Of a stretch of 64,000 bases of DNA, positions 7,876-21,599 are shown piece after piece. The stretch spans positions 1,871,001-1,935,000 of the forward strand of contig CP126122.1 of assembly GCA_030123565.1 (NCBI GenBank), written 5' to 3'. How positions within the stretch are numbered: position 1 is the first letter of the stretch; every line of letters begins with the position of its first letter. Origin of the DNA: Nitrospira sp. (lineage in GTDB: Bacteria > Nitrospirota > Nitrospiria > Nitrospirales > Nitrospiraceae). The notes beneath the pieces were generated by a model that made no database searches, was not told the DNA's origin, and saw nothing but the letters and a program-made list of their open reading frames with translations. Both the position numbers and the translations under genes were made by a program.

Positions 7876-9957
7876 TTACGCCAAAGGCAGGATTTCAAAA
7901 ATCGCCGCCCGTTCCACGCGGCCGATATCGACCCACTGTTGAGCCAGGAGAACCAGCGCCACCAACCGTTCCTCCACTGCAGCCAACCGTTCGCGGACGG
8001 CGGTAGGTTTGTGTTGGGCGGTGACCCGAAGGAATGTGCGCAGGCCATGCAAAAACAGGGTGATGTTCGAGGCTGAGACGCGATCCGCCGCGTCATAGAG
8101 CCGGTCGATCGCCTCGAAGACCGGTTCCAAGGCCTGAGGTGAGAACGGTCGCTCTTCGCTCGCACGGCCGATGTCGCCGAGGGTGGCGATCAAGGCCGGG
8201 ACATGGGCCTGCATCTGCGCCAGAAACTGCTCGTCCAGCTCATCCAGGTCTTTCAGGATACGGCCGACAGCCCGCGCATCGACCGCCTCCCCGCTCTGTT
8301 CCATCTCGCGCTCGGACCGTTGAATGACCGTCTCCAACTCGTCACGAACCGGCTGGAGCGACCGCCCTCTGGCCATATGCAATTGTCGCAAGGCATCGAG
8401 GATGGGAGTGGACGGCAACAGGCTTGGACCCGCGTCCCGTCTGGGGCATTCCGAACTCGGCCCCGCTTCCACATCGGTCGGCGGAGGCGACGCAGCAGGG
8501 CGAACCTGCTCGGATGCATCGGCGCCGACGGCTTCGCCCCGAACCGTTTCAACCTGTTCGAGTTCCTGTATCATCCTGGCGATTCGCAGCAGACCTTCTC
8601 GAAGCGAAGCCACATGATGGGCCGCCACGACTCGCTCATACTTGCCTGCGGCCTGGAGGAGCGGGAGCAGCGTGGTCGCCGTCTCCTCCACCTCAGTCAG
8701 ACCGACGGTCGCAGCGGATCGGGCGAGGTTGCTCACGCTCTGCCACAGAATCGTGGCCAGTCTGGCGCGACGAGGTTGCTCGCTCGTCGTATCCAGGCGC
8801 TCGAGCGCCGTCTGAATTTGGTTCAACCATTCACGGGCTTCGAGCGCAAAGAGCCCAAGAATCTCCCGGCGCACGGGCGTCGCCTCTTCAGCAACATCCG
8901 CCGCCGATACGGCCTGAGCGGAAGCCGCAAGGGACGGGGACTTCTCTACCGCGGTCTGAATCACGCTGGCAATCGCATCAAGGCTCTCCAGCAGCGCCGC
9001 AAAGTGATCCGATGTGTCCGCGGACGAGCCGGCGGACTCAGCCGGCGGAGGCGGCGGCGAGAAGGTCACCCGTTCCAGGGCGGGCGGATCGACGGTCTCC
9101 ACCACCGACACCTGAGGCAGCAGGCTGAGGTCGAGGCAACGAGGCGCGTCGGCAACGGACTCCTCCTGCTCGCCGACGATGCGAATGACGGGGCGCGAAG
9201 GGTAGCGGGGCGTGATGCGGACGACCACTCCCTCCTCTCCGCTGCTCAAACGAACCTTGGTTCCCAGCGGATACACGGACAACTGCTCGACCAGGGCTTT
9301 CATGATCTCACGCGGAAAGGCAGTGCGTTCGGTGTTGAGCAATTCGCGGACGGCCTCATGCGGAAGCATGCGCCGGCGATAGGGACGTGGGCTGACGAGC
9401 GCGTCGAAAATATCCACGAGGCCGATGATCTGCGCCAGTTCATTGATCTCTCGTCCCTTCAAGCGGCTGGGGTATCCCTGCCCCATCCCCCGTTCATGGG
9501 CCTGCAGCACGACTTCGGCGAGCCAAGCGTAGTCCGCGCCGAGACGTCCGATCACGTCGCTCCCTAATCGGGGATGTTGCTCGACGAGGGCCCGTTCATC
9601 GGAGGTCAAGCGACCGGTTTTCGTCAGCAAGTGCTGCGGCACGGCGAAAATACCGATGTCGTGCAGCAGTCCGGCCAACGCAAGGCGCCGCAATTCCGCG
9701 CCGTAGTAGCCGAGACCGATGCCGACCTTCGTACACAGGATCCCCACGTTGACGAGGTTGGTGACCAACGGAGGGCCGGGGGGACTGGAGAGCGCCTCGA
9801 CGACCAACTGATCGTTTTCCTGAATGGCATCGACGATGGTTCCGGCAAGATGGGTCACCTCCGCGAGGTCCACCTGTTTCTGTCGCTGAACGGCGGCGGT
9901 CACCTGCAAGAGCGACGCTTCGATTTGCCGATAGAGATTCTGTTCCGTCCCACCCAT
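7876..9957 (-). CDS. Degenerate HD-GYP protein with C-terminal pseudo-Hpt module
   Basis: A 693-residue product from the ATG at 9957, which has GAGGGG upstream. Residues about 60-215 form an HD-GYP domain, the fold of cyclic-di-GMP phosphodiesterases: HD at 99-100, QHP at 127-129 and GYP at 161-163 are present. The first metal histidine of the family is replaced (TNLVNV where THSVNV is usual), HDIGK reads HDIGI, and the HH pair before GYP is AH, so catalysis is doubtful. A small beta-rich segment follows (230-262), then a linker and, from about 365, an Hpt-like helical region where Ser409 stands at the phosphoacceptor position. The rest (about 500-693) is shared with the product of 10898-11866. 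It is last in the chemosensory operon and may bind rather than cleave c-di-GMP. Confidence 0.8.
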   Translation of the reverse strand: MGGTEQNLYRQIEASLLQVTAAVQRQKQVDLAEVTHLAGTIVDAIQENDQLVVEALSSPPGPPLVTNLVNVGILCTKVGIGLGYYGAELRRLALAGLLHDIGIFAVPQHLLTKTGRLTSDERALVEQHPRLGSDVIGRLGADYAWLAEVVLQAHERGMGQGYPSRLKGREINELAQIIGLVDIFDALVSPRPYRRRMLPHEAVRELLNTERTAFPREIMKALVEQLSVYPLGTKVRLSSGEEGVVVRITPRYPSRPVIRIVGEQEESVADAPRCLDLSLLPQVSVVETVDPPALERVTFSPPPPPAESAGSSADTSDHFAALLESLDAIASVIQTAVEKSPSLAASAQAVSAADVAEEATPVRREILGLFALEAREWLNQIQTALERLDTTSEQPRRARLATILWQSVSNLARSAATVGLTEVEETATTLLPLLQAAGKYERVVAAHHVASLREGLLRIARMIQELEQVETVRGEAVGADASEQVRPAASPPPTDVEAGPSSECPRRDAGPSLLPSTPILDALRQLHMARGRSLQPVRDELETVIQRSEREMEQSGEAVDARAVGRILKDLDELDEQFLAQMQAHVPALIATLGDIGRASEERPFSPQALEPVFEAIDRLYDAADRVSASNITLFLHGLRTFLRVTAQHKPTAVRERLAAVEERLVALVLLAQQWVDIGRVERAAIFEILPLA

Positions 9958-9992
9958 CGAACCCCTCTTTCCTTCTTCCGCCTCACCAATAC

Positions 9993-10833
9993 TTAACTCA
10001 CGCGCCCGGCTTCTCGTACCACCCATTCGTCGATTTCAGAGGAGCGGTTCATGGCCCCCACCAAGAGGCACAAGTCGCACAAGGAATTGATCAACCGGCA
10101 GACGCCCCCGCTCTGGTGAAACACCATCGCCAGGGCTTCCTCTGTGAAGAGCGCGCGTGAACAACCGGCAATAGCCAAGCGGGCCGCCACATACCGCCGC
10201 ACGTCTTCGGCGCCGAACGCATCAAGATGGCAGCGGATGGCCAACCGTTGTTCCAGTTGCGGAATCCGCGCGACTTTCTTTCGCAAATCCGGTTGCCCGA
10301 GCAGCACCAACGTGAGAAGGAACCGGGTGTTCGTCTGGAAATTGAGCAGCAGACGTAGTTCCTCAAAGAGACGTTGACTGTCGATCGCCTGGGCTTCATC
10401 CACGAAGATGACCGTATCGACATCCCGACGATAGTTCGTCATGAGGTGCTCGTTCAATCGATGCAGAAGCCGCACCTTCGAGCCGCCGGCCGCGACGCCC
10501 AGTTGGCACAACACTTCGTTGAGAAAGTCCTTGGCCGAGAAAGAGGGATTGGCGATCATGGCGACATCGTAACGGGATTCAGGCAACCCGAGCACCACGG
10601 CGCGACTGAGAAGCGTTTTTCCACAACCGATCTCCCCGGTCAGCATCACGGCCCCTTTCCGCGCCTGGATACCATAAGAGCAGTCGTTGCCTGACGGCCT
10701 CATGGGCGGCGGAAGGAACGTAAAAGCCGGGATCAGGAACATTTTCAAAGGGCCGGCACCGGAGGCCCCAATACCCTTCGTACGTACAATCTGCAACGAT
10801 CGACTGCGGAGACGTCCGCAGGATGGTGTTCAT
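9993..10833 (-). CDS. ExeA/GspA-type AAA+ ATPase, interrupted by a frameshift
   Basis: The protein would read, from the ATG at 10833, MNTILRTSPQ... YWGLRCRPFENVPDPGFYVPS...HEAVRQRLL, then YGIQARKG, Walker A GEIGCGKT, Walker B VIFVDEAQ and an AAA+ lid ending in GRVS. This is the layout of ExeA/GspA ATPases. The two parts lie in different frames: at about 10674-10678 the minus strand reads CTCTTATGG where CTCTATGG would keep the frame, so one base is extra. All motifs after the break are intact, and an in-frame ATG near 10706 could give a shortened product. It may be a real lesion, a sequencing error or a recoding site. ExeA helps assemble the secretin with peptidoglycan in type II systems; here it lies in the chemosensory operon, away from the gsp genes, with no exeB beside it. 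Confidence 0.75.
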
Positions 10834-10897
10834 AACAAGATTCGGCCGGCTGTCGATGGAACTTCCTCGCCAAGACGTCGGACGGATAGGACGAAGG

Positions 10898-11866
10898 TCA
10901 GGCCGCCGGCAACAGCCTGCCCATCGCCTCTCGCTCCTGTTGTCCTGCGGTGATCCATTCCTCGATGGTGGCACGCACGGCATGAATTCGTGTTTCCACC
11001 GATTCCACCCGCTGAGAAGCGAGCACGACCCGACGCTGGACGATGAGTGAGAGAAAACTTTGGAGGCCCGACAGAAAGGTGACGAGAGGGGAGGCATTGG
11101 CCTGTTTGGCAATGCTCTGAAGTTGTTCGAGATTCTGAATACATCCGCCCAACACATCGTCTGGCTCCAATAACGCCAATCCTTCCCGGCGAAGCCTCGT
11201 CAGACTTTGAGCGACGGCAGGCAACTGTTGCCGCAGCGTCCCCAAGAACTGCTCGTCCGCACCCTGAAGATCGACGAGAATCTGGTGAAACCTGGTCGCC
11301 TGCATCTGCCCTACCCCCTGCCTCGCTTCCTGTTCCAGGCGCTGCATGACCTGCGGAATCAACCTGCGGGAAGGGAGCCCCGCCGCCGCGTGCTCGTCAT
11401 GCAGCGTCCGCAGGGCGTTCAGCAACGTCAAGAGATCGGCGGCCGGCTCGGATTGAGGCGGCACCTCCCACGACGGGCCTAGATCGAGCGTCATTCCAGT
11501 CGCCGTCGTCACGGACGCGCTGACGATGCGGAATTGTTCGCGGACTGTGACATAGTCCTGATTCGTGGCCGTGGTGCGGTCTTTCAGCGTATCGATGAAG
11601 GGGAGAAGGGCAAAGGTGGCACGTTCGACATCGGAGAGATTGACCGTGGCCGCGGAGCCGCCGAGACTGGTAATGCCTCGCACGACGGCGTCCACGAGTT
11701 GCATATGGCGGTCCGGATCAGGTTGGCCTTCGAGTTCGGTCAGGGCCGAGTGGATTTGGAGCAGCCACTCCTGAGCCTCCTGGCCGAACAACTCGACCAG
11801 CTCTTTTTGAAACTCGTCCTCGGTCTGTTCTGGTTCGATCGACAAGGCGTCCTGCCCGTGACTCAT
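10898..11866 (-). CDS. Pseudo-Hpt protein, paralogue of the HD-GYP C-terminal half
   Basis: A 322-residue, mostly helical protein with no signal peptide or membrane segment. Residues about 20-115 align with Hpt domains: LFGQEAQEWLLQIHSAL matches the first helix of the CheA Hpt repeats, and TSLGGSAATVNL stands where HTLKGSAHTVGF is found, so Thr66 replaces the phosphoacceptor histidine. The remainder (about 140-322) aligns along its whole length with the C-terminus of the HD-GYP protein, including a shared DEQFL segment and a similar end (MGRLLPAA versus FEILPLA). It lies between the receiver/coiled-coil gene and the ExeA gene, in the same operon. I infer a docking or structural role rather than phosphotransfer. 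No named family is recognised for the C-terminal part. Confidence 0.75.
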   Translation of the reverse strand: MSHGQDALSIEPEQTEDEFQKELVELFGQEAQEWLLQIHSALTELEGQPDPDRHMQLVDAVVRGITSLGGSAATVNLSDVERATFALLPFIDTLKDRTTATNQDYVTVREQFRIVSASVTTATGMTLDLGPSWEVPPQSEPAADLLTLLNALRTLHDEHAAAGLPSRRLIPQVMQRLEQEARQGVGQMQATRFHQILVDLQGADEQFLGTLRQQLPAVAQSLTRLRREGLALLEPDDVLGGCIQNLEQLQSIAKQANASPLVTFLSGLQSFLSLIVQRRVVLASQRVESVETRIHAVRATIEEWITAGQQEREAMGRLLPAA

Positions 11867-11901: not shown

Positions 11902-13344
11902 CTAACGTTTCCCCTTACCGAGCTGCGACGCAAGGCCTGCGATCTCCCCCAGTTTTCGGGCCATGTCTTCAAATCGCCGATTGGACTGTTCGGCCTGTTG
12001 CTCTGCTTCGGTCGCACGTTTCATCAACTGCGTCGACCGCTCCCGTTCGCCGGCCAATTCCGTATCGAGTTCCTGGGCACGTTGCACTACCTCTTCCAAC
12101 TGTTTCACCTGGGTCAGCAATGTGGCCGCGGTTTCCCGCTCCGTCGAGAGTATGGCCTCGAGTTCGGCGATGCGCGCGCGTTCTTTCTGGAGAGCCCCTT
12201 CCAACCCAGGGACCTGTGCCGCAATATTTCCCAATTCGGCATTGTGGTTCCTGAGCTGCTCTCCCTCCTCACGTTCGCCCGCGAGTTGCGTTTCAAGGTC
12301 ACGGGCACGACTTTCCGCATGTTCAAGTGCGGTGATCTGTTGGACCAATTGCGCGGCTGCGTCTCGTTCCGCCGTCAGCGTCGCTTCCAATTCAAGGATA
12401 CGCCCGGCTTGATGGGCGCTGGCCGCAACTTGTTGCGAAAGGTCTTCCGTATATCGGCGCGCTTCTGCCAAAGCAGCTTCAAGCTCGCCAGCCCGATGGG
12501 CTTCCCTTGATACGTCGGCCAGTTGCTCTGCAAGAGCGCCCCGCTGTGCACGCTCCTCTGCCAACGCCAGATCGAGCGCCGCCATGCGCGAAGACCAGTC
12601 TTCAACCTGCGCGCGTTGTTCAGCCAGAGCAGTCTGCAGTTGCTGTATCTGCTCATGACTCTGTCGGCCTTCACAGGCGAGTTGTTCTTCAAGCTCGGCG
12701 ATGCGAGCCTCGCGCTGGGCCATGGCCGCCGCGTGGCGTTCATCGGTTTCACTCGACACATTCGGCGCGACGGCTTGAGAAGCCGGACTGGACGCTGTCG
12801 CGTCGGGAATATTCACCGTAAGTCGTATCGCATCCGGTTCGGCAGGATGCATGGTTGCAGAACGTTCAGACTCTTCCGGTGAGCGCACGATCGACGCAGT
12901 CGGACGCTCTTCGACGACAGACCGGTCCGTGCGGGCCTGGCTTGGAGCCGGTTCCGGAGCCGGCGCCGGCTTCGCCTGGCGCTTCGTGAGGAGATCCAGC
13001 ACCCGATCTTTCAGCGAGGTTCCCTGAAACGGTTTCTTCAATACCCCGTCGGCTTTGCATGATTCCGCCTGGCGGGACACCTCGTCGTTGACGATCCCGC
13101 TAATCAACAGCACGGGAATATCCGCCAGGTTCGCCTGTGCCCTGATGAACGAACAGACTTCGTAACCGCTTTTGTCCGGCATAATGACGTCGGACACGAT
13201 CAAATCCGGACGGTCCTTGCTGAGAAGGGCCATCGCTTCCGAGCCGTTCGCAGCCAGGGTCACTCCCATCCCGGCCTCCGTCAGAAGGCGTTCGGCTACC
13301 TTACGAACCGCGATACTGTCATCGGCAATCAAGATCTTGGGCAT
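11902..13344 (-). CDS. Receiver domain fused to a long coiled coil
   Basis: A 480-residue protein. Residues 1-125 are a CheY-like receiver with the acidic pair at 8-9, phosphoacceptor Asp52 in VSDVIMPDKSG and the KKPF lysine motif. A Pro/Ala-rich linker (KPAPAPEPAPS) follows, then from about 190 to 470 an Ala/Glu/Gln-rich stretch with heptads and repeated ELEA/ELETQLAGERE-like units, predicted to be a continuous coiled coil. No DNA-binding or enzymatic output is present. In comparable proteins such as FrzS-like receivers, phosphorylation steers localisation or assembly; that role is an inference here. The ATG has AGAGGA five bases upstream. It sits between a CheW-like gene and the pseudo-Hpt gene. 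Confidence 0.85.
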   Translation of the reverse strand: MPKILIADDSIAVRKVAERLLTEAGMGVTLAANGSEAMALLSKDRPDLIVSDVIMPDKSGYEVCSFIRAQANLADIPVLLISGIVNDEVSRQAESCKADGVLKKPFQGTSLKDRVLDLLTKRQAKPAPAPEPAPSQARTDRSVVEERPTASIVRSPEESERSATMHPAEPDAIRLTVNIPDATASSPASQAVAPNVSSETDERHAAAMAQREARIAELEEQLACEGRQSHEQIQQLQTALAEQRAQVEDWSSRMAALDLALAEERAQRGALAEQLADVSREAHRAGELEAALAEARRYTEDLSQQVAASAHQAGRILELEATLTAERDAAAQLVQQITALEHAESRARDLETQLAGEREEGEQLRNHNAELGNIAAQVPGLEGALQKERARIAELEAILSTERETAATLLTQVKQLEEVVQRAQELDTELAGERERSTQLMKRATEAEQQAEQSNRRFEDMARKLGEIAGLASQLGKGKR

Positions 13345-13369: not shown

Positions 13370-13849
13370 TCATGAACCGGTACGGATCGATGAGGTCCCC
13401 AACGTCGTCAGGTTGATGATGGGAAGTTCTTCCTCGCCGGCAACACAGGTCCCGGCGATATCGGGATCGGCGCCGGGGCGATAGTGAACCACAGACTGCG
13501 CCACCAGGTGAAGCGATGGAACCTGGGGATCGATACGGATGGCAATGGGCCCGTCTACGTGTTTGACGATCAAACACAACGATTCACTCTCTCGCATGGC
13601 GCGATTGAATTTCGCCGCAAGGTCGAACACCGGAAAGCAGCCCTTCTCCCGACGGATCAGTGAGGTGACGAACGGCGTATCGCTGGGAACCAACATGGCG
13701 CCCGGCCATGGCACGACGCCGTCGATCTCCTCGGTTTTCGCCGCCAACCGTCGCCCCGCCACTGAAAACACCACCATACCCTGTCCGCGCGCCTGAGCGA
13801 CGCCCTTCCTTTCCACCCGAGACTGCCTGCGCAACTGAGCACGTAGCAT
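13370..13849 (-). CDS. CheW-like adaptor protein
   Basis: A 159-residue single CheW-fold protein. After a basic N-terminus (MLRAQLRRQSRVERK) the beta-barrel begins with MVVFSVAGRRLAAKTEEIDGVV; the family arrangement continues with a segment resembling the CheW G-x-x-x-R-x-x-x-P-V-F-D-L core (RREKGCFPVFDL). CheW proteins bridge receptors and CheA in the signalling array. It is one of three CheW-type products here and is clearly different from the canonical one at 19894-20430. AGGGG lies seven bases before the ATG. It is 16 bases downstream of the other CheW-like gene. It could couple a particular receptor set or inhibit coupling. Confidence 0.75.
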   Translation of the reverse strand: MLRAQLRRQSRVERKGVAQARGQGMVVFSVAGRRLAAKTEEIDGVVPWPGAMLVPSDTPFVTSLIRREKGCFPVFDLAAKFNRAMRESESLCLIVKHVDGPIAIRIDPQVPSLHLVAQSVVHYRPGADPDIAGTCVAGEEELPIINLTTLGTSSIRTGS

Positions 13850-13865: not shown

Positions 13866-14432
13866 TTATGTCACACAACTCGATGAAATCGACACAGCCT
13901 CTTCTCGACCGGTCGAAGGGAGCCGGAGCATGGATTCGGCATGTCCGGATCGGCGTTCAGAAACCTGAAACGTATCCAGGACATCTTTGCGGGAAGGGAG
14001 TTCAAGCACCCAGAAAGGGTTGGTAATGAGCGCGACGTACGCGGATTCGACCAGGAAGCCCAGCAGCCGGTCGCGCTCCCCTCCTCGAAACTGCGGCGGG
14101 AGCGGATGGACGTGTGTCCGTTCCACGTCCACGAGGCCCAAGACCCCATCGACCACAAACGCTCGTGACCGCTGCTCATTGCCGTACAGCACGACCCTTG
14201 TCTCGGCAGTCGTCGCCGTGGCCACGATGGTCAGACGCCCGGAAAGATCGGTCCACTCATAGGAGGAATGGGCCCAGACGACGGGTCCTTCGGAACCGGC
14301 CTCGGCCGGCGTAATGATGCCGCGCACCCACTGAGCGGGAAATGCAAAATGCGTGGGACCGATGAGCGCCACCAGAAACCTGATCGCCTGACCACCGGAC
14401 GACACGACGGCCTTATGTCCTCGAAGTCCCAT
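13866..14432 (-). CDS. Diverged CheW-like protein
   Basis: A 188-residue protein, weakly similar to CheW: IRFLVALIGPTHFAFPAQWVRGIITPAEAG resembles the first CheW strands, and the body keeps alternating beta strands, VVDGVLGLVDV being close to the VDEVLGV segment of the fold. The usual central G-x-x-N-x-R-G motif is absent, and the region has WTDLSGRLTIV instead. It follows cheA by 47 bases and precedes the second CheW-like gene, so a coupling or decoy role in the same array is inferred. There is a tail of about 35 residues after the fold (STGREEAVSISSS). Assignment rests on fold pattern and position, not on strong motifs. Confidence 0.6.
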   Translation of the reverse strand: MGLRGHKAVVSSGGQAIRFLVALIGPTHFAFPAQWVRGIITPAEAGSEGPVVWAHSSYEWTDLSGRLTIVATATTAETRVVLYGNEQRSRAFVVDGVLGLVDVERTHVHPLPPQFRGGERDRLLGFLVESAYVALITNPFWVLELPSRKDVLDTFQVSERRSGHAESMLRLPSTGREEAVSISSSCVT

Positions 14433-14479: not shown

Positions 14480-17400
14480 CTATTTTCTGGCGCCGGTTTC
14501 GCGGGCCGTCCACCTCTGCACTTCTTGAATCAAGGCCCGTTCTTCGACCGGTTTGGCGATATAACCAGACGCGCCCACATTGACGGCCATCTGGCGGTGT
14601 TTTGCCCCGGCCCTCGTGGTCATCACGAGGATCGGTGTCTCGCGGGTCTGAAGTCTCGCGCGAAGCGCTTGGATCACTTCATACCCGTTCAACTTGGGCA
14701 TTTCGAGATCGGTGATGATGAGCCGATAGTTCTGTGTCGATGCTTTGCGGCACCCTTCCTCGCCGTCTACCGCCGTTTCGACCGTATAGCCGGCAGCCTC
14801 AAGCATGCGTCCGACGAATTTTCTGATGCTGAGCGAGTCGTCGATCAACAATAGGGGAAGCTGTTTGGATGCAGACTGCGCCGGGACAGGCTGAACCGGT
14901 TCATCATGTATGGACGATACGGCATCGTCATGTCCGGTCGGCAACGCTTGATAATACTCACGTGTCGCCAGCCGACTGACATCCAGGACCAGGACGACCC
15001 GTCCCTCGGGATCGATGGTGGCGCCCCCGAATACGGAACGTTCATAGGGCTTCAGCGCCCCCAGCGACTTGATGACGATTTCTTGCCTGCCCAACAGTTC
15101 GTCCACGGCACAACCAAGCGGGCCGGTGGAGGTCCGGACGACGACCACGGGGGTGGAACGATCGACGGGACCCGATTCCCGGCGAATGAGGGCGCCGAGC
15201 GGAAACACCTCGATGGCCTCATCACCGATCTGCATCATCGACCGACCACCCATTTGCTGGATCGTGGAAGCGGTCGACATCGTCACTTCGCGCACGCTGG
15301 GGAGAGGGATCGCATACCGCTCCTTCTCGACACGGACAAGCAGCGCGGTCGCGATCAAGAGGGTGAGCGGGAGATGCATCGTAAACTTCGTGCCCTCCCC
15401 GCGCACCGATTCCACTTCGATGTGACCGTTCATAGTCTCGATCACACGTTTGACTACGTCCATGCCGACCCCGCGGCCCGCTAGATCGCCGACGGCATCA
15501 GCAGTAGAAAAACCGGGGAGGAAGATAAACTTGATGACTTCACTTTCAGGCAGGGATGCGGCGACTTCCGGCTTGACGAGGCCCAACTTGACCGCCTTCG
15601 CCTTGATCTTCCCAATATCGAGCCCCGCGCCATCGTCCTCGACTTCGATGATCACCGAATTTCCCCGATGCGCCGCGTGGAGATAGACCGTACCGGCTGC
15701 CGGTTTGCCTTGGCTGAGACGGGTGCCGGCCGGCTCGATCCCGTGGTAGACCGCGTTCCTAACCAGGTGGACGAGCGGATCGACGAGACGCTCGACGACG
15801 CCGGTGTCGATTTCGGTATGTTCGCCGGAGGTAACCAAATTGACTTCCTTGCCGGTGGCGCGTGCCATTTCACGCGCCGCACGGCGGAACCTGGTAAAGG
15901 GCGTTCCGATCGGCACCATTCGAGCCCGGGCGATTTCGTCGCGCATCCCCAGCGTCAACTGCTGCAACTGCCCCATGTCATCCTGTGCACGGTGAATCGA
16001 CCCGCTCAACTGCGACATGGATTCGGTGATATCCGCTGTGACTTCGCTGATTCGCCGAGCCAGGATGTTGAAGTCGTCGTATTTGTCGAATTCCAAACTC
16101 CCGAAATCACTGACGCCGAGAAAGGGCTGCGGCACCGCCTCGCCTGACGACTTGGGTGACGGCTGAAAGGAGAAGGTATGTTTATCCTCGAACGTCCGAA
16201 CGGCATCGATCAACCGATTCTTGTTGGCCAACACTTGGGAGGCCAGTTGATCCAGTGTCCGCAATCGCTGTTCGAGGCGCCCACGATCGATCACCAGTTC
16301 GCCGACCAGGTTCAATAGGCGTTCCAAGCGATCACGACTGACGCGGATCACCTCCCGTTCCTCACCGGTTTTTCCGTCGCCGCCCTTGACCGGCTCGGCT
16401 CCGGCCGCTTCCGGCACATTTTCCACCGCAACGGCTTCCGAGGGCGACGGTACGACAGATGGTGTCGCACCGGGTCCGGGCTGGATATGCCCCAGCTGCT
16501 TCAGTTCTTCCAGTAAGGCGGCAAACCGTTGTCTCATGCGCCCCAGCGTGGAAGGATCGCGCCGCATCAAGCTCCGAATGACATCGATCGCCCGCAGCAA
16601 CAAGTCCGTATGCCCGGGAAGGAGATGGAGCTGTCCCTCACGGACTGCTCCCATGAAATCTTCAATGTGGTGCGTCAGGTCCCCGATCGCCTGGAACCCG
16701 ACGGTATAGGCCGACCCTTTGAGCGTATGGGCCGTGCGAAAGAGTTCATGAATGGTTTCAGGATTCGCGGTCTCCCTGTCCAAACGCAACAGGTGAGCCT
16801 CAAGGGTTTCCAAATACTCCTGAGCTTCCGGAGCGAAATAGGACATCACTTCGGGATCGAGCGCCGGGATCAGATACCCTTCCGCAAGAACATCTGCCTG
16901 AGCCTCGCTCACAGGCTGAACCGCTGAATTTTCGGCGGACGTCGCAGCGACCGCCACCTCCTGCAGCGTGGTCGTCTCAAAGCGATCAGGCCCGGCTGGT
17001 TCCGCCCCCGCGCGATTCACTCCGGATTCCAACTCCTGAAGCAATGTCTTGATTCGGGGAACCTCCCGCTTCAAACGGGACAGGTGCCGAGAATCTCGCT
17101 CCATGAGGGAACGGATGACCTGAACCGCCTGCCGAATAGATGTTATCCAATGGGGTGCGATGACCGCGCGCCCCTCTCGAACGGCAATCATGCAGGTTTC
17201 GATCGGATGGGCTACATCGCCGACCACCTGAAACCCGACGGTATGGGCGGACCCTTTCAGGGTGTGAGCCACTCGATATAACTGATGGACGGCCTCGGGA
17301 TCCTGTAGATCGGTTTCCAATCGCTGGAGCAGCGTTTGGATGGTGCGGAGATATTCCTCCGCCTCGGGGGAAAAATAAGACAGGACTTCGTGGTCCAGGT

Positions 17401-17878
17401 TGGGAATGAGGTAGTCGTCCGCCGGCCCATCCATATTCGCGCCGGCATCTACGGAGGCGTTACCGGGATCAGCCGGCATCAATTCGGCACAGCGCCGGAC
17501 GAACTCTTCGACGACCGATGGATCCTCGCTCCCTCCCCGTCCGATCTGTTCGACCTGGCCTCGAAAGGACGCCGCGACTTCCCGAATCAACAGGAGGATC
17601 GCCGGCCATCGCTCAGCAGGAATGTCTTGGACCCGTTCCAGCGTCTCCTCAAGCAACGCCCCAAGTCTGCCGAGGCCGGTAAATCCATAGAGAAGCGCCG
17701 CCCCCTTCAGCTTGTGCCCGACGGCATGGTACTCGGCCACTTCCTCCGGTTCCGGACAGGACTTCCCCTCCGGGTGCAGGGCCTTCCAGAACCGTCCCAT
17801 ATCGTCACCGGCCTCGGCGACGAAAATGGCCACCAACTGGTCGCGATCAAAATCAGAACTCATTGAGCCACTCGACAT
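14480..17878 (-). CDS. cheA: CheA-type hybrid histidine kinase with three Hpt domains and a receiver
   Basis: An 1132-residue soluble kinase. Three Hpt domains carry phosphoacceptors His55 (GHKLKGA), His205 (AHTLKGSA) and His384 (AHTLKGSA); the second and third are close repeats about 179 residues apart, each opening with YLIP-x-LD-x-EV-x-SYF. A dimerisation region (about 510-660), the HATPase domain (N-box near 702-714, DDGAGLD at 748-754, GRGVGMDVV at 801-809), a regulatory CheW domain (about 845-975) and a C-terminal receiver with Asp1057 follow. The layout is that of ChpA/PilL-like kinases of pilus-type chemosensory systems. It phosphorylates response regulators such as the CheY at 20434. 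An ATG at 17863 (MSSDF) is an alternative start. It lies 36 bases after the MCP gene. Confidence 0.93.
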   Translation of the reverse strand: MSSGSMSSDFDRDQLVAIFVAEAGDDMGRFWKALHPEGKSCPEPEEVAEYHAVGHKLKGAALLYGFTGLGRLGALLEETLERVQDIPAERWPAILLLIREVAASFRGQVEQIGRGGSEDPSVVEEFVRRCAELMPADPGNASVDAGANMDGPADDYLIPNLDHEVLSYFSPEAEEYLRTIQTLLQRLETDLQDPEAVHQLYRVAHTLKGSAHTVGFQVVGDVAHPIETCMIAVREGRAVIAPHWITSIRQAVQVIRSLMERDSRHLSRLKREVPRIKTLLQELESGVNRAGAEPAGPDRFETTTLQEVAVAATSAENSAVQPVSEAQADVLAEGYLIPALDPEVMSYFAPEAQEYLETLEAHLLRLDRETANPETIHELFRTAHTLKGSAYTVGFQAIGDLTHHIEDFMGAVREGQLHLLPGHTDLLLRAIDVIRSLMRRDPSTLGRMRQRFAALLEELKQLGHIQPGPGATPSVVPSPSEAVAVENVPEAAGAEPVKGGDGKTGEEREVIRVSRDRLERLLNLVGELVIDRGRLEQRLRTLDQLASQVLANKNRLIDAVRTFEDKHTFSFQPSPKSSGEAVPQPFLGVSDFGSLEFDKYDDFNILARRISEVTADITESMSQLSGSIHRAQDDMGQLQQLTLGMRDEIARARMVPIGTPFTRFRRAAREMARATGKEVNLVTSGEHTEIDTGVVERLVDPLVHLVRNAVYHGIEPAGTRLSQGKPAAGTVYLHAAHRGNSVIIEVEDDGAGLDIGKIKAKAVKLGLVKPEVAASLPESEVIKFIFLPGFSTADAVGDLAGRGVGMDVVKRVIETMNGHIEVESVRGEGTKFTMHLPLTLLIATALLVRVEKERYAIPLPSVREVTMSTASTIQQMGGRSMMQIGDEAIEVFPLGALIRRESGPVDRSTPVVVVRTSTGPLGCAVDELLGRQEIVIKSLGALKPYERSVFGGATIDPEGRVVLVLDVSRLATREYYQALPTGHDDAVSSIHDEPVQPVPAQSASKQLPLLLIDDSLSIRKFVGRMLEAAGYTVETAVDGEEGCRKASTQNYRLIITDLEMPKLNGYEVIQALRARLQTRETPILVMTTRAGAKHRQMAVNVGASGYIAKPVEERALIQEVQRWTARETGARK

Positions 17879-17914: not shown

Positions 17915-19789
17915 CTACGCGAGCTTGAACTGGGCGACCGATGAGTTGAGGCTTTCGGCTAACTTTGCCATGTCCTCGATCGTGAGCCGTGTTGAGTCCG
18001 TCTGTTTCTGCGTCGCGACCGCACCGCCGGTGAATTCCTTGATGGCTCGACCGACTTTTTCCGTCGAGGCGGTCTGTTCGGATGCCGCGCTCGCGATGTT
18101 GTGGGCCAATTCGGACGACCGTTTTGCGATGTCTGAAATTTCGGCGAACACGTCACCGGTCCGGAGCGCCGATGCCGAGCCGGCTTCCACCGCCTGCGTT
18201 TCATGTTCCATCGCGACGACCGCATCCTGCGTTTCCGTTTGAATCACCTTTACGAGATCGGCGATTTCGCGGGTGGCCTGTGTGGAGCTTTCCGCCAGTT
18301 TTCTGACTTGATCGGCGACGACGGCGAATCGCGCTCCGGCCTCGCCGGCGCCGGCCGCCTCGATGGCGGCGTTCAGCGCGAGCAGGTTGGTCTGATTGGC
18401 AATATCGCGGATCGTGGACACGATTTGGGAAATTTCGAGCGATCGGTCTCCGAGACCTTTCACCTGCTTGGACATACGTTGCACCGCGGACCGGATGCTC
18501 TGCATGTCGCGCACGGTTTCCTGCACCGCGACGTTGCCTCGTTCCGTCGCTGAAAGCACCTGCTTGGCGGAATCAGAAGACGCGCCGGCGGTCGTCGCCA
18601 CCTGGCGCATACCGGCGGCCAATTGTTCGACCGCCCCCAGGGTGCGCACCGACTCTTCCGCCTGCATCCGGGCGGTTCCTGACATCTGACCGGCTGAATC
18701 CCGCAACGTTCCGGCAGACTTGTTGACGCGATCGGCGGCCTCACGAACCTGCTTCAGCAATTGCCCGAACCGCGAGATCATGAGATTGAACCCGTCGGCC
18801 AGGTTTCCGAACATGTCCGCCGTCACTTCACCTCGTTTCGTCAAATCGCCCTTCCCGACATCGGAGACCAGCACGAGAAATTGCATCAACCGTTTTTGCA
18901 TGGTGTCCCGCTCTTCCTCCGTCGACACCAAAGCCGTAATGCGGTCGAGCATGGAGTTGAACGCCGTGGCCATCTGGCCCAACTCATCATGCGACTGGAT
19001 CTTGGCACGGGCTTGCAAATTGCCGCCGGCGGCCTGAGTCGCAACATTGGCGATATGGGTGATGCCGCGTGACAGAAACGTGGCCAATAGGTATCCGACG
19101 AAAATTCCGATGGCCACGGCGACCAGACCGCCGGCGACCAGAATGAACGTACCGTTGGAGGCCAGCGATTGCGCGTCGTCGTTGAGATCCTTGGCGACCG
19201 CCTCGATGCTGGTGACCTGCTCATTGTGGCGCTTCACGGCATTTTCGAACGACGGCGTCAGGTTGACGGTCAAGGCCAGGACACCGAGGGCCCGCATTTG
19301 TTCGGCCTGTGCGGAGGACAAGGTGGTGCGATCGAAACTGTCCGCCATGGCGCTCAAGGCCCCGTCCGCATCCTGAAAATATTTCTTCAGCGCCGGTTCG
19401 AACAGGGCCAGGTCCCGCGTTTCGTCTCGGCCTGAACGCGAGGCGCGCAAGGTCGTGGCTTTATAGTTGTTCAACGCTTTTTCGATTTCCGCCTTCAACG
19501 GAGCCAGCTTGACCACTTCCTGGGCGAAGTCGGCCTGTTTGGTGGCCGCCGCGAGATCCAGCAAGATCTGGTGATGTTTGGTCAACGCGGTTCCCATCTG
19601 CGCAAATTCGGCCAACGGCACCGTATACTCGACGTACACCGTTTGTGACTGTGTACTCAGTTGGCGCAGGGTGAACACACCGACACTGGCCATGATCATG
19701 ATGATGAAACTGACGAGTCCGAAACTGAGCAGCAGTTTCGACTGAGTCTTCATGTCTTGGAATCGATTCATGACGCCTTGCCCGATCAT
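17915..19789 (-). CDS. Methyl-accepting chemotaxis protein with altered hairpin tip
   Basis: 624 residues from the ATG at 19789, which has GGAGGAG upstream. A membrane helix (about 20-41), a helical periplasmic ligand domain (42-212), a second membrane helix (213-238), a HAMP domain and a second HAMP-like segment (about 300-350) lead to the antiparallel signalling hairpin. The tip (456-500) reads [17 protein letters not shown], then [22 protein letters not shown]. Most MCPs have ARAGEQGRGFAVVA here, so the conserved arginine is Gly480 and the GRG is GAR. These residues lie in the zone that touches CheA and CheW. Two HAMP units and the neighbouring hybrid CheA resemble PilJ of the Pil-Chp system. 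There is no C-terminal methylation-enzyme tether, and no cheR or cheB is in the operon. Confidence 0.92.
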
Positions 19790-19893
19790 GGTGCGCTCCT
19801 CCTTGTTCGCTTTTCCCTCGGCGTTCGGCAGCCGGTGCACGATCTCCGGTCACGCACGCCCGCGAAGATTCGAGTCGTTGCTCGTGATCCTAC

Positions 19894-20430
19894 CTACAAC
19901 CCGGTTCCGCCTCCGTCGACTTGTTCAAAGACCTGCGGAACCTCCAGGACCCCTCCCAGGCGCTCATCCAGGCGAAGGACGGCCGATATGCAGGGTGGCG
20001 CACCGGCCGGCCCACCCTGCATAGTCGGCAGTAAGTCTTCACGAGAGACGGTGCGAATCTCCGGTGCATGATCGACAAGGACCCCGATGTGCCTGGAGCC
20101 CTGACGGATGACGACCGCAAAAGGGAGGGCTGAATCGACGACGGCCAAGCCCAGGCTTCCCCGCAAATCGACCAGAGAAATGACCGTGCCCCGGAGATTG
20201 GTTACCCCCGTCAGGATACCCGGCATGCCCGGAACGACGGTCACGGATTCCACCTCGAACACTTCGCTGACATGACGGAGATCGACGGCGAACAGCTCTC
20301 CCCCCAGCGTCAGCACGCACATGCGCAGAGTTCCTTCGGCCGTCACGGCGGAGGGTCTCGATGTGCCGGAGGATCCGTGAGCCGGGGATGGTTCGAGCGG
20401 TTGAGGATGGGTCGCCGGAACTGAGGCCAT
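19894..20430 (-). CDS. cheW: CheW coupling protein
   Basis: A 178-residue CheW. After a Pro/Ser-rich N-terminal extension of about 30 residues, the fold runs LRMCVLTLGGELFAVDL, VSEVFEVESVTVVPGMP, then the core GVTNLRGTVISLVDLR with the conserved asparagine, arginine and glycine that contact receptor and kinase, and IGVLVDHAPEIRTVS. It couples the MCP and CheA in the array. It starts 3 bases after the stop of the CheY gene and precedes the MCP gene. This is the most canonical of the three CheW-type proteins in the operon. Confidence 0.9.
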   Translation of the reverse strand: MASVPATHPQPLEPSPAHGSSGTSRPSAVTAEGTLRMCVLTLGGELFAVDLRHVSEVFEVESVTVVPGMPGILTGVTNLRGTVISLVDLRGSLGLAVVDSALPFAVVIRQGSRHIGVLVDHAPEIRTVSREDLLPTMQGGPAGAPPCISAVLRLDERLGGVLEVPQVFEQVDGGGTGL

Positions 20431-20433
20431 GGG

Positions 20434-20796
20434 TTAGTTCAGTGCCCGTTTGACGGCTGCCACCAAATCTTCGGCCTTAAAGGGCTTCACGACGTAGCCG
20501 TTCGCCCCCTGTTGCTGGCCCCAAAACTTGTCGCTCTCCTGCCCCTTCGAGGTGCAGAGTACGATCGGAATGCCTTTGAAGCGGTCGTCGTTCTTGAGAT
20601 CGCGGCAGGTCTGGAATCCGTTGCGTCCCGGCATGACGACATCCAACACGATCAGGTCCGGCTTGTCGACCGCCAGTTTCTCTTCGAGTTTATCCGTGTT
20701 CGGATAAGACACGACTGTATGGTTGGCAGACTTGAGATATCCCTCGATCATCTGCAATTCGGCGTAGGAATCATCGACGACAACGATCTTGCTCAT
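20434..20796 (-). CDS. CheY-like single-domain response regulator
   Basis: 120 residues from the ATG at 20796, preceded by GGGGAGGAAG. It is a lone receiver: the acidic pair in VVDDSYAE (residues 8-9), the phosphoacceptor aspartate in LIVLDVVMPGRNGFQ (near 54), the conserved Thr/Ser in LCTSKGQ and Lys in VVKPFKAEDL. The sequence is closest in style to PilG/PilH-type regulators (LDVVMPG-x-NGFQ), which act on type IV pilus motors. Here it is the likely diffusible output of the CheA encoded downstream. It follows the haem protein by 68 bases. Confidence 0.9.
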   Translation of the reverse strand: MSKIVVVDDSYAELQMIEGYLKSANHTVVSYPNTDKLEEKLAVDKPDLIVLDVVMPGRNGFQTCRDLKNDDRFKGIPIVLCTSKGQESDKFWGQQQGANGYVVKPFKAEDLVAAVKRALN

Positions 20797-20864
20797 GAGC
20801 GCTTCCTCCCCTTCAATCCGATTAAATGTGCGTAATGAATGTCCTATCGAATCAGTTGCAGCGG

Positions 20865-21599
20865 CTATCGCATGGGAATGATGATGCTGATGGCGCCGGC
20901 CAAGTCGCCTTCTTTCCACCCTTCCTTCTTGGCGCCCGTGATGTCGCGCTCGCCTTTGGGATTTCCGTGACAGCCGAGGCAGGAGGCCGAGGCATATTCC
21001 GGATCCATCATCCGCAACACCGGCTTTCCGTCGATCATGGTGGCCTTGCTGTAGGGCTGCCCCTTGGGATGGCGTGTATCGGCAAAAATCCGGAGCACTT
21101 CGGATTCGAAATCGTCCGGTCGATTTCCAGGGAACCGATAATCCGTCCCTGTCAACTTCATGCGAATGCCGGTTTTGCGATAGAAACGCTCACCGGCCTT
21201 GCGGGCGAACACGGCTGGAATGATGCCCTTGAAACCGACTCCCTGTTTATTGATGACCGGTTGAGCTTCATCGATAACTTCCTTCTCCGATTCCACCATG
21301 GCAAGGAAAAGCGGAGCCTGCGCCGTGCTGTTGGGGCGACTCAGATCGATTTTCGTGGCCTTGCGAAACCGCTCGATCACTTGATTGGCGACATAGTCGC
21401 CGGTGAATCCCTTGTCGCCTTTGCCGGCGTCATTGATGGTGGCTTGATGTTCCGAAATCACACCACGACCGACCTGCAAAAGTTTGATGAGCAGTTCTGC
21501 AGTCTCCACCTCAGTATTGGCCAGTGCAGGACCGGCTGTACCGACACAGGTCGCCAACAGCGCGGCAACCATGGATTTCTTGATGAAATTGTTCGCCAT
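20865..21599 (-). CDS. Periplasmic single-haem protein (Tll0287-like, DUF3365)
   Basis: A 244-residue exported protein. A Sec signal peptide (residues 1-28, cleavage after PALA) leads into a domain of the DUF3365/Tll0287-like type, a PAS-like haem fold, with the conserved segments ADTRHPKG-x-PYS, MDPEYASASCLGCHG and GDLAGAISI. One c-type haem site is present, CLGCH at 207-211. Such domains occur as sensor modules of chemoreceptors and kinases. Here the protein is soluble and encoded first in a chemosensory operon, so a periplasmic redox or gas sensor for the MCP is an attractive inference. A GGAGGAGG ribosome site and a promoter lie upstream. Confidence 0.8.
   Translation of the reverse strand: MANNFIKKSMVAALLATCVGTAGPALANTEVETAELLIKLLQVGRGVISEHQATINDAGKGDKGFTGDYVANQVIERFRKATKIDLSRPNSTAQAPLFLAMVESEKEVIDEAQPVINKQGVGFKGIIPAVFARKAGERFYRKTGIRMKLTGTDYRFPGNRPDDFESEVLRIFADTRHPKGQPYSKATMIDGKPVLRMMDPEYASASCLGCHGNPKGERDITGAKKEGWKEGDLAGAISIIIPMR

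Follow-up and report, generated by a model that had tools for sequence, protein, structure and literature searches.

The stretch of DNA analysed here, the window, comprises 64,000 nucleotides from Nitrospira sp. (assembly GCA_030123565.1, contig CP126122.1, positions 1,871,001 to 1,935,000) and carries on its minus strand a chemotaxis-like (chemosensory) cluster, recognised by Pfam annotation of its open reading frames (ORFs), that holds two proteins with histidine phosphotransfer (Hpt) modules lacking the acceptor histidine. One, here called HptL, is a free protein; the other is an HD-GYP protein whose C-terminal tail is paralogous to HptL. Their homology, the missing acceptor and catalytic residues, their origin by one duplication and their place in the operon are established by computation; both proteins are probably docking platforms joining surface sensing to a second messenger. 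Their parts lie in the window as follows, with residues of the HD-GYP protein in ORF numbering.

10898..11866, minus strand: HptL, free protein of 322 aa with a tandem of two pseudo-Hpt domains, the second very likely (ORF, BLASTP, Pfam, predicted model, profiles)
11492..11815, minus strand: first pseudo-Hpt of HptL, residues 18-125, with Thr66 (11669-11671) at the His position (Pfam Hpt; match of model to 1tqg; hhalign to Hpt3 of the operon CheA)
10943..11287, minus strand: very likely second, diverged pseudo-Hpt of HptL, residues 194-308, with Glu247 at the inferred His position (CheA P1 chains on the model at 194/199-308; Pfam Hpt in family C-halves; alignment register)
7876..10026, minus strand: HD-GYP protein with paralogous tail, ORF of 716 aa, likely start Met24 at 9957 (ORF, BLASTP, Pfam)
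9247..9774, minus strand: degenerate HD-GYP domain, about residues 85-260 (Pfam HD_5, E 3.9e-29; equivalents of PmGH E185, H189, K225 and H276 replaced)
8551..8877, minus strand: first pseudo-Hpt of the tail, residues 384-492, with Ser432 (Ser409 counted from Met24) at the His position (Pfam, predicted model, alignment)
7921..8265, minus strand: very likely second pseudo-Hpt of the tail, residues 588-702, with Asp641 at the inferred His position (register; Pfam Hpt over nearly the whole profile)

Translation of the HD-GYP protein probably begins at Met24 rather than at the ORF start, as a purine-rich run lies upstream of this codon and the gene then does not overlap the preceding one. BLASTP aligns HptL residues 19-322 with residues 385-716 of the HD-GYP protein (95/337 identical, 28%, E 1e-29), and hhalign pairs the two families with probabilities of 99.9% (N-halves) and 100% (C-halves). 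A sequence-only reading of this DNA had proposed that the free protein and the C-terminal half of the HD-GYP protein align along their length; the similarity is significant and both lie where it had placed them, with Thr66 of HptL at the His position, as is Ser409 of the HD-GYP protein if counted from Met24.

The first half of each module is an Hpt bundle of the CheA P1 type in which the acceptor His is missing. Pfam Hpt (PF01627) matches HptL at residues 22-86 (E 7.5e-5, 23.3 bits) and the fused copy at residues 388-490 (E 0.045, 14.4 bits), both below the curated cut-off of 24.6 bits; 20 of the 21 N-halves tested match the family, and a profile of these 21 finds CheA P1 of T. maritima with E 2.1e-7. 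Against the Hpt domains of 81 CheA proteins from the same operons, the N-half reaches hhalign probabilities of 81.6% (Hpt1), 96.3% (Hpt2) and 96.9% (Hpt3). Among predicted models, which were built from 7 sequences, the best Protein Data Bank match of the tail is CheA P1 1tqg (VIA Z 16.4, root mean square deviation (rmsd) 1.7 over 104 residues, TMt 0.88); the HptL model matches the same chain (VIA Z 13.0, rmsd 2.4 over 104 residues, TMt 0.77), at a level also attained by designed four-helix bundles, as helical bundles score high generically and a Z of 13 is advised for them. The superposition on CheA P1 suggested by the sequence-only reading bears out its pseudo-Hpt assignment.

The loss of the acceptor was followed through 100 stretches fetched by coordinates from related genomes (labels beginning with G denote genomes, L loci, g genera and f families); L046 and L158-L163 are left out of the counts, and G009 is not among the stretches fetched. 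These loci hold 92 HptL, 52 HD-GYP proteins with the tail and 27 without it. The acceptor position is Thr in 79, Ala in 7, Ser in 5 and Asn in 1 of the 92 HptL proteins, and Thr in 24, Ser in 12, Asn in 9 and Gly in 6 of the 52 tails, the remaining row being a gap that reads Thr when a longer cut is used; His, whose possible occurrence the sequence-only reading had left to be checked, is present in 0/92 HptL and 0/51 readable tails. In CheA P1, positions H+3, H+19 and H+22 are Lys, His and Glu. The operon CheA keeps the whole set in Hpt3 (H, K, H and E, each in 81/81), and the acceptor His is retained in 81/81 Hpt1 and 72/81 Hpt2 domains (two Asp, seven gaps). Over the same four positions, taken in order, His, Lys, His and Glu number 0, 1, 2 and 0 in the 92 HptL proteins, and the 52 tails have none of these residues (one gap at the first two). 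The core near the lost His is kept in HptL, with S71 in 91/92, A72 in 92/92 and T74 in 89/92. A common GSAATV motif after the acceptor site had also been proposed; it holds for HptL (TxLxGSAAT) and fails in the fused copies, where the Gly before the Ser is Arg, Lys or Gln.

Thr66 was considered as an invariant residue, being present in 16/16 sequences of an early sample; this was abandoned once more genomes reduced it to 79/92. It is highly improbable that Thr66 is a real phospho-acceptor, making HptL a threonine phosphotransfer domain of the kind named for ChpA: Thr is the prevailing residue and ChpA is described as having domains named threonine and serine phosphotransfer (PMC12632253), however the position is also Ala, Ser or Asn, the Lys, His and Glu partners are lost, and ChpA Hpt domains without His are reported to show no phosphorylation in vitro (PMC10782961). 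An unlikely alternative is that the fold has been kept merely as a helical connector or dimeriser, without contact to a receiver; four-helix bundles are generic scaffolds and many unrelated ones score nearly as high structurally, however the residues around the lost acceptor rank among the most conserved and the modules stay beside the chemosensory operon in the loci fetched.

The C-terminal half very likely forms another pseudo-Hpt, which has diverged further. Scanned alone at E up to 10, 10 of 28 C-halves match Pfam Hpt, more than match any other family; the best, from L138 (genus g20), scores 25.0 bits (E 2.2e-5) over positions 4-84 of 84, above the cut-off, and five from f2 and g4 give E 0.0005 to 0.003. 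In the window, the C-half of the tail matches along almost the full profile with E 0.32, and the C-half of HptL has no Pfam Hpt match. On the HptL model, the CheA P1 chains 1i5n, 2lp4 and 8c5v align best at residues 194-308 (Z 10.2-10.7, rmsd 2.0-2.6), below the advised Z of 13. The register agrees between the sequence and model lines, both placing L249 and A253 on the L and A of HxLKGSA and residue 247 at the His site; L249 is invariant in 92/92 HptL and 52/52 tails. Residue 247 of HptL is Ala in 50, Glu in 21, Ser in 12, Gln in 3, Thr in 2, Val in 2, Gly in 1 and Asp in 1, and its equivalent in the tails is Glu in 26, Asp in 24 and Ala in 2; neither is ever His. As an internal repeat, the N-half and C-half profiles align with P 8.8e-4 over 97 collinear columns, which is weak at the profile level, and shuffled profiles score as high against the C-half in 1/60 trials for Hpt2 and 4/60 for the tail N-half; the second Hpt therefore draws on single-sequence Pfam hits and the model, which together make a strong case for it. 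The C-terminal region of about 180 residues, which the sequence-only reading found in both proteins and could not name, is thus indeed common to both, however it very likely holds this second Hpt-like bundle. The second acceptor-equivalent site (Asp641 in the window) is acidic, Glu or Asp, in 50/52 tails versus 22/92 HptL.

The HD-GYP domain itself looks catalytically inactive when aligned to PmGH (4mcw). The equivalents of PmGH E185, H189, K225 and H276 are absent in 79/79 operon HD-GYP proteins (one gap each at E185 and H189); H221, D222, H250, H277, D305 and the GYP motif are retained in 79/79. In PmGH, Ala at H189 or H276 is reported to essentially abolish activity, K225A to have a similar impact and E185A to cause a marked reduction (PMC4159591). 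That the protein belongs instead to an unusual metal class of active phosphodiesterases and is regulated by its tail is improbable; the residues retained throughout would suit such an enzyme, however three of those lost (H189, H276 and K225) are each, by the same report, essential for PmGH activity.

Of 61 near genomes, 42 have an HptL match, among them every one of the 28 others of the genus; the number falls to 41 without G057, whose match (E 9.7e-6, a single short stretch) was judged unconvincing. Across the phylum, 98/295 genomes match the HptL profile at E 1e-5; among the matches listed, full-length ones lie solely in families f1 and f2 of one order. Matches in more distant families were rejected as HptL, since in long frames they span no more than about 110 residues at the N-terminus, and the six that were opened (L158-L163) are CheA-like. 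The pair that the sequence-only reading proposed to seek in other genomes recurs in the fetched loci, with variations: in G016 HptL lies on a different contig from L047, which carries the HD-GYP gene only, and in eight loci (L036, L037, L039, L045, L108, L119, L137, L138), each extending over 6 kb downstream, HptL is present and no HD-GYP gene was recognised. L137 and L147 (genus g6) have an HptL on a long branch with TxLxGSAAT broken, beside a divergent CheA and with no HD-GYP gene recognised in the stretch. One TAG interrupts the aligned HptL stretch of L005, L006 and L011 (G020, G002 and G016), and L033 is of the same kind, ending early at a stop.

The pair arose by one duplication, as judged from a tree in which, after thinning of genus g1, 107 of the 144 modules were placed: a single branch separates the tails from the other modules (support 100/99, in 200/200 bootstrap trees), and since the fused copies are a single clade, one duplication is implied, in line with the earlier proposal of duplication from an Hpt ancestor. 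The 27 tailless HD-GYP proteins belong to g6 (26) and g24 (1); one of them, from L114, is truncated by the contig end. Tailless loci such as G033 were considered as a pre-fusion state; the tree makes tail loss in part of g6 at least as likely, and within g6 the tails are scattered across the HptL tree, so loss is likely there.

The remaining genes of the cluster, also on the minus strand, are the following.

9993..10796, minus strand: AAA_22 (ExeA/GspA-like) ATPase between the HptL and HD-GYP genes, frame split in the window genome (Pfam)
11902..13344, minus strand: RRcc, a receiver domain followed by a long coiled coil (Pfam Response_reg, E 2.3e-22)
13370..13849, minus strand: CheW-like protein (Pfam)
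13866..14432, minus strand: CheW-like protein (Pfam)
14480..17878, minus strand: hybrid CheA with three His-bearing Hpt domains and a C-terminal receiver (Pfam, hhalign, alignment)
17915..19840, minus strand: methyl-accepting chemotaxis protein with 4HB sensor and HAMP (Pfam)
19894..20430, minus strand: CheW (Pfam)
20434..20919, minus strand: single-domain response regulator in a PilG/PilH-like position (Pfam)

Read along the minus strand, the order is single receiver, CheW, methyl-accepting protein, hybrid CheA, two CheW-like proteins, RRcc, HptL, AAA_22 ATPase and HD-GYP protein, and most fetched loci have the same order. A hybrid multi-Hpt CheA with a methyl-accepting protein, CheW proteins and a single-domain regulator is the composition of a Pil-Chp-type cluster. 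The AAA_22/ExeA-like gene (9993-10900) differs by one base from that of the near relative L048, which splits the frame and leaves the N-terminal part in another frame upstream; this is either a sequencing error or decay, and of the loci fetched from the window's genus, L048 alone has the gene whole.

PilT co-occurs with HptL. It (TIGR01420, E 1e-100) is found in 40/41 HptL genomes versus 6/20 genomes without HptL, the sole HptL genome without a match, G031, being 80% complete. Flagellin matches occur in 30/41 versus 7/20, and in family f2 every one of the 7 genomes with HptL has PilT and none a flagellin match; HptL thus tracks PilT more than flagellin. A complete type IV pilus set is described for one Nitrospira strain (PMC12542776).

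It is hypothesized, with a probability of about 0.5, that HptL and the tail are FimL-like receiver-docking scaffolds, the tail being wired to a cyclic di-GMP (c-di-GMP) pseudo-phosphodiesterase, that link chemosensory state to the type IV pilus. A CheA-type Hpt would have given rise to a tandem pseudo-Hpt, which duplicated once to yield HptL and the HD-GYP tail; the phosphotransfer chemistry would be gone, and the core kept around the lost acceptor would be the face that meets a receiver domain. HptL and the tail would then most likely dock receivers of the cluster (the single-domain regulator, RRcc or the CheA receiver) and transfer no phosphate, much as FimL anchors PilG; through the fused copy, a receiver would be brought to the apparently dead HD-GYP domain, whose role, if it has one, would be to bind c-di-GMP or a protein, and chemosensory state and c-di-GMP would meet at the pilus. 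In a doubtful extension, the pair may form a wholly non-catalytic coupling device in which the fused polypeptide reads both a chemosensory receiver and c-di-GMP, the free copy competes for the same receiver and docking alone integrates the two inputs; in Nitrospiraceae this device may serve as the c-di-GMP branch of Pil-Chp, replacing the degenerate FimX/PilZ set of Pseudomonas.

Pseudo-HPts are also a named class in plants, where AHP6, an Hpt fold with its His replaced by Asn, acts by binding as an inhibitor in the cytokinin relay. HptL and the tail resemble AHP6 in having an Hpt fold with the His replaced; AHP6 differs in being a single domain with Asn at the site. By analogy, the Nitrospira modules could be competitive inhibitors rather than anchors, occupying receivers and blocking phosphotransfer from the adjoining CheA with its three His-bearing Hpts. 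This is quite unlikely, as inhibition needs neither a second pseudo-Hpt nor an HD-GYP fusion, and FimL, the nearest bacterial precedent in such operons, is described as an anchor.

Several observations weigh against the docking hypothesis. Kinship confounds the association with PilT. In most g6 loci and in g24 the HD-GYP protein is tailless, so the fusion is dispensable there, and with HD, H250, H277, D305 and GYP kept, the domain may still bind some metal or be weakly active. Thr at position 66 of HptL is more frequent than a free position would give, and the conservation of TxLxGSAAT could serve packing alone. For the second Hpt, a related profile pair had a score reached by 0/60 column shuffles, however the reversed profile equalled it over 24 columns, and CheA Hpt3 scores against the C-half no better than shuffles, of which 34/60 are as high.

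Among known systems, Bd1817 of Bdellovibrio is described as an HD-GYP fold without phosphodiesterase activity and without the Tyr of GYP (PMC4159591); it resembles the Nitrospira domain in being an apparently inactive fold, however the latter keeps GYP and has lost metal ligands instead, and the portion of that report drawn on here mentions no pseudo-Hpt tail. Hpt is mentioned together with EAL sequences in PMC9756655. The pair of HptL and HD-GYP tail is not named in the literature searched, mostly at the level of titles and abstract openings. The Xpt (non-His Hpt) domains of ChpA are alike in being Hpt folds that lack His and belong to a type IV pilus chemosensory system (PMC10782961, PMC12632253); they sit within the kinase, whereas the Nitrospira modules are separate proteins beside a kinase whose three Hpts nearly always keep His.

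FimL of Pseudomonas aeruginosa, in which two Hpt-like domains are reported, each with Gln at its acceptor site (PMC3019171), is the closest precedent and a strong one for a phosphorylation-independent anchor of PilG. It is described as helping to keep PilG at the pole, and PilG D58A and D58E are still recruited (PMC10519157); FimL recruits PilG without need for its phosphorylation (PMC3019171, PMC10519157). By its described anatomy, FimL is like HptL and the tail in having two Hpt-like domains, no His at either and a Pil-Chp context, the second domain here being assigned on weaker evidence; it differs in the residues at the two sites, which in the window are Thr66 and Glu247 in HptL and Ser and Asp in the tail, and, unlike FimL, HptL is encoded inside the operon and its duplicate is fused to an HD-GYP protein. 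Published work calls the role of Hpt domains without His in type IV pilus chemosensory systems an open question (PMC10782961, PMC12632253); the same invention occurs here outside the kinase, in 92 natural variants and in a nitrite-oxidising, ecologically central nitrifier, as small separate proteins that make the scaffold hypothesis directly testable with a few purified proteins. What is new relative to these systems is a set of FimL-type tandem pseudo-Hpts that has been duplicated and fused to a degenerate HD-GYP domain.

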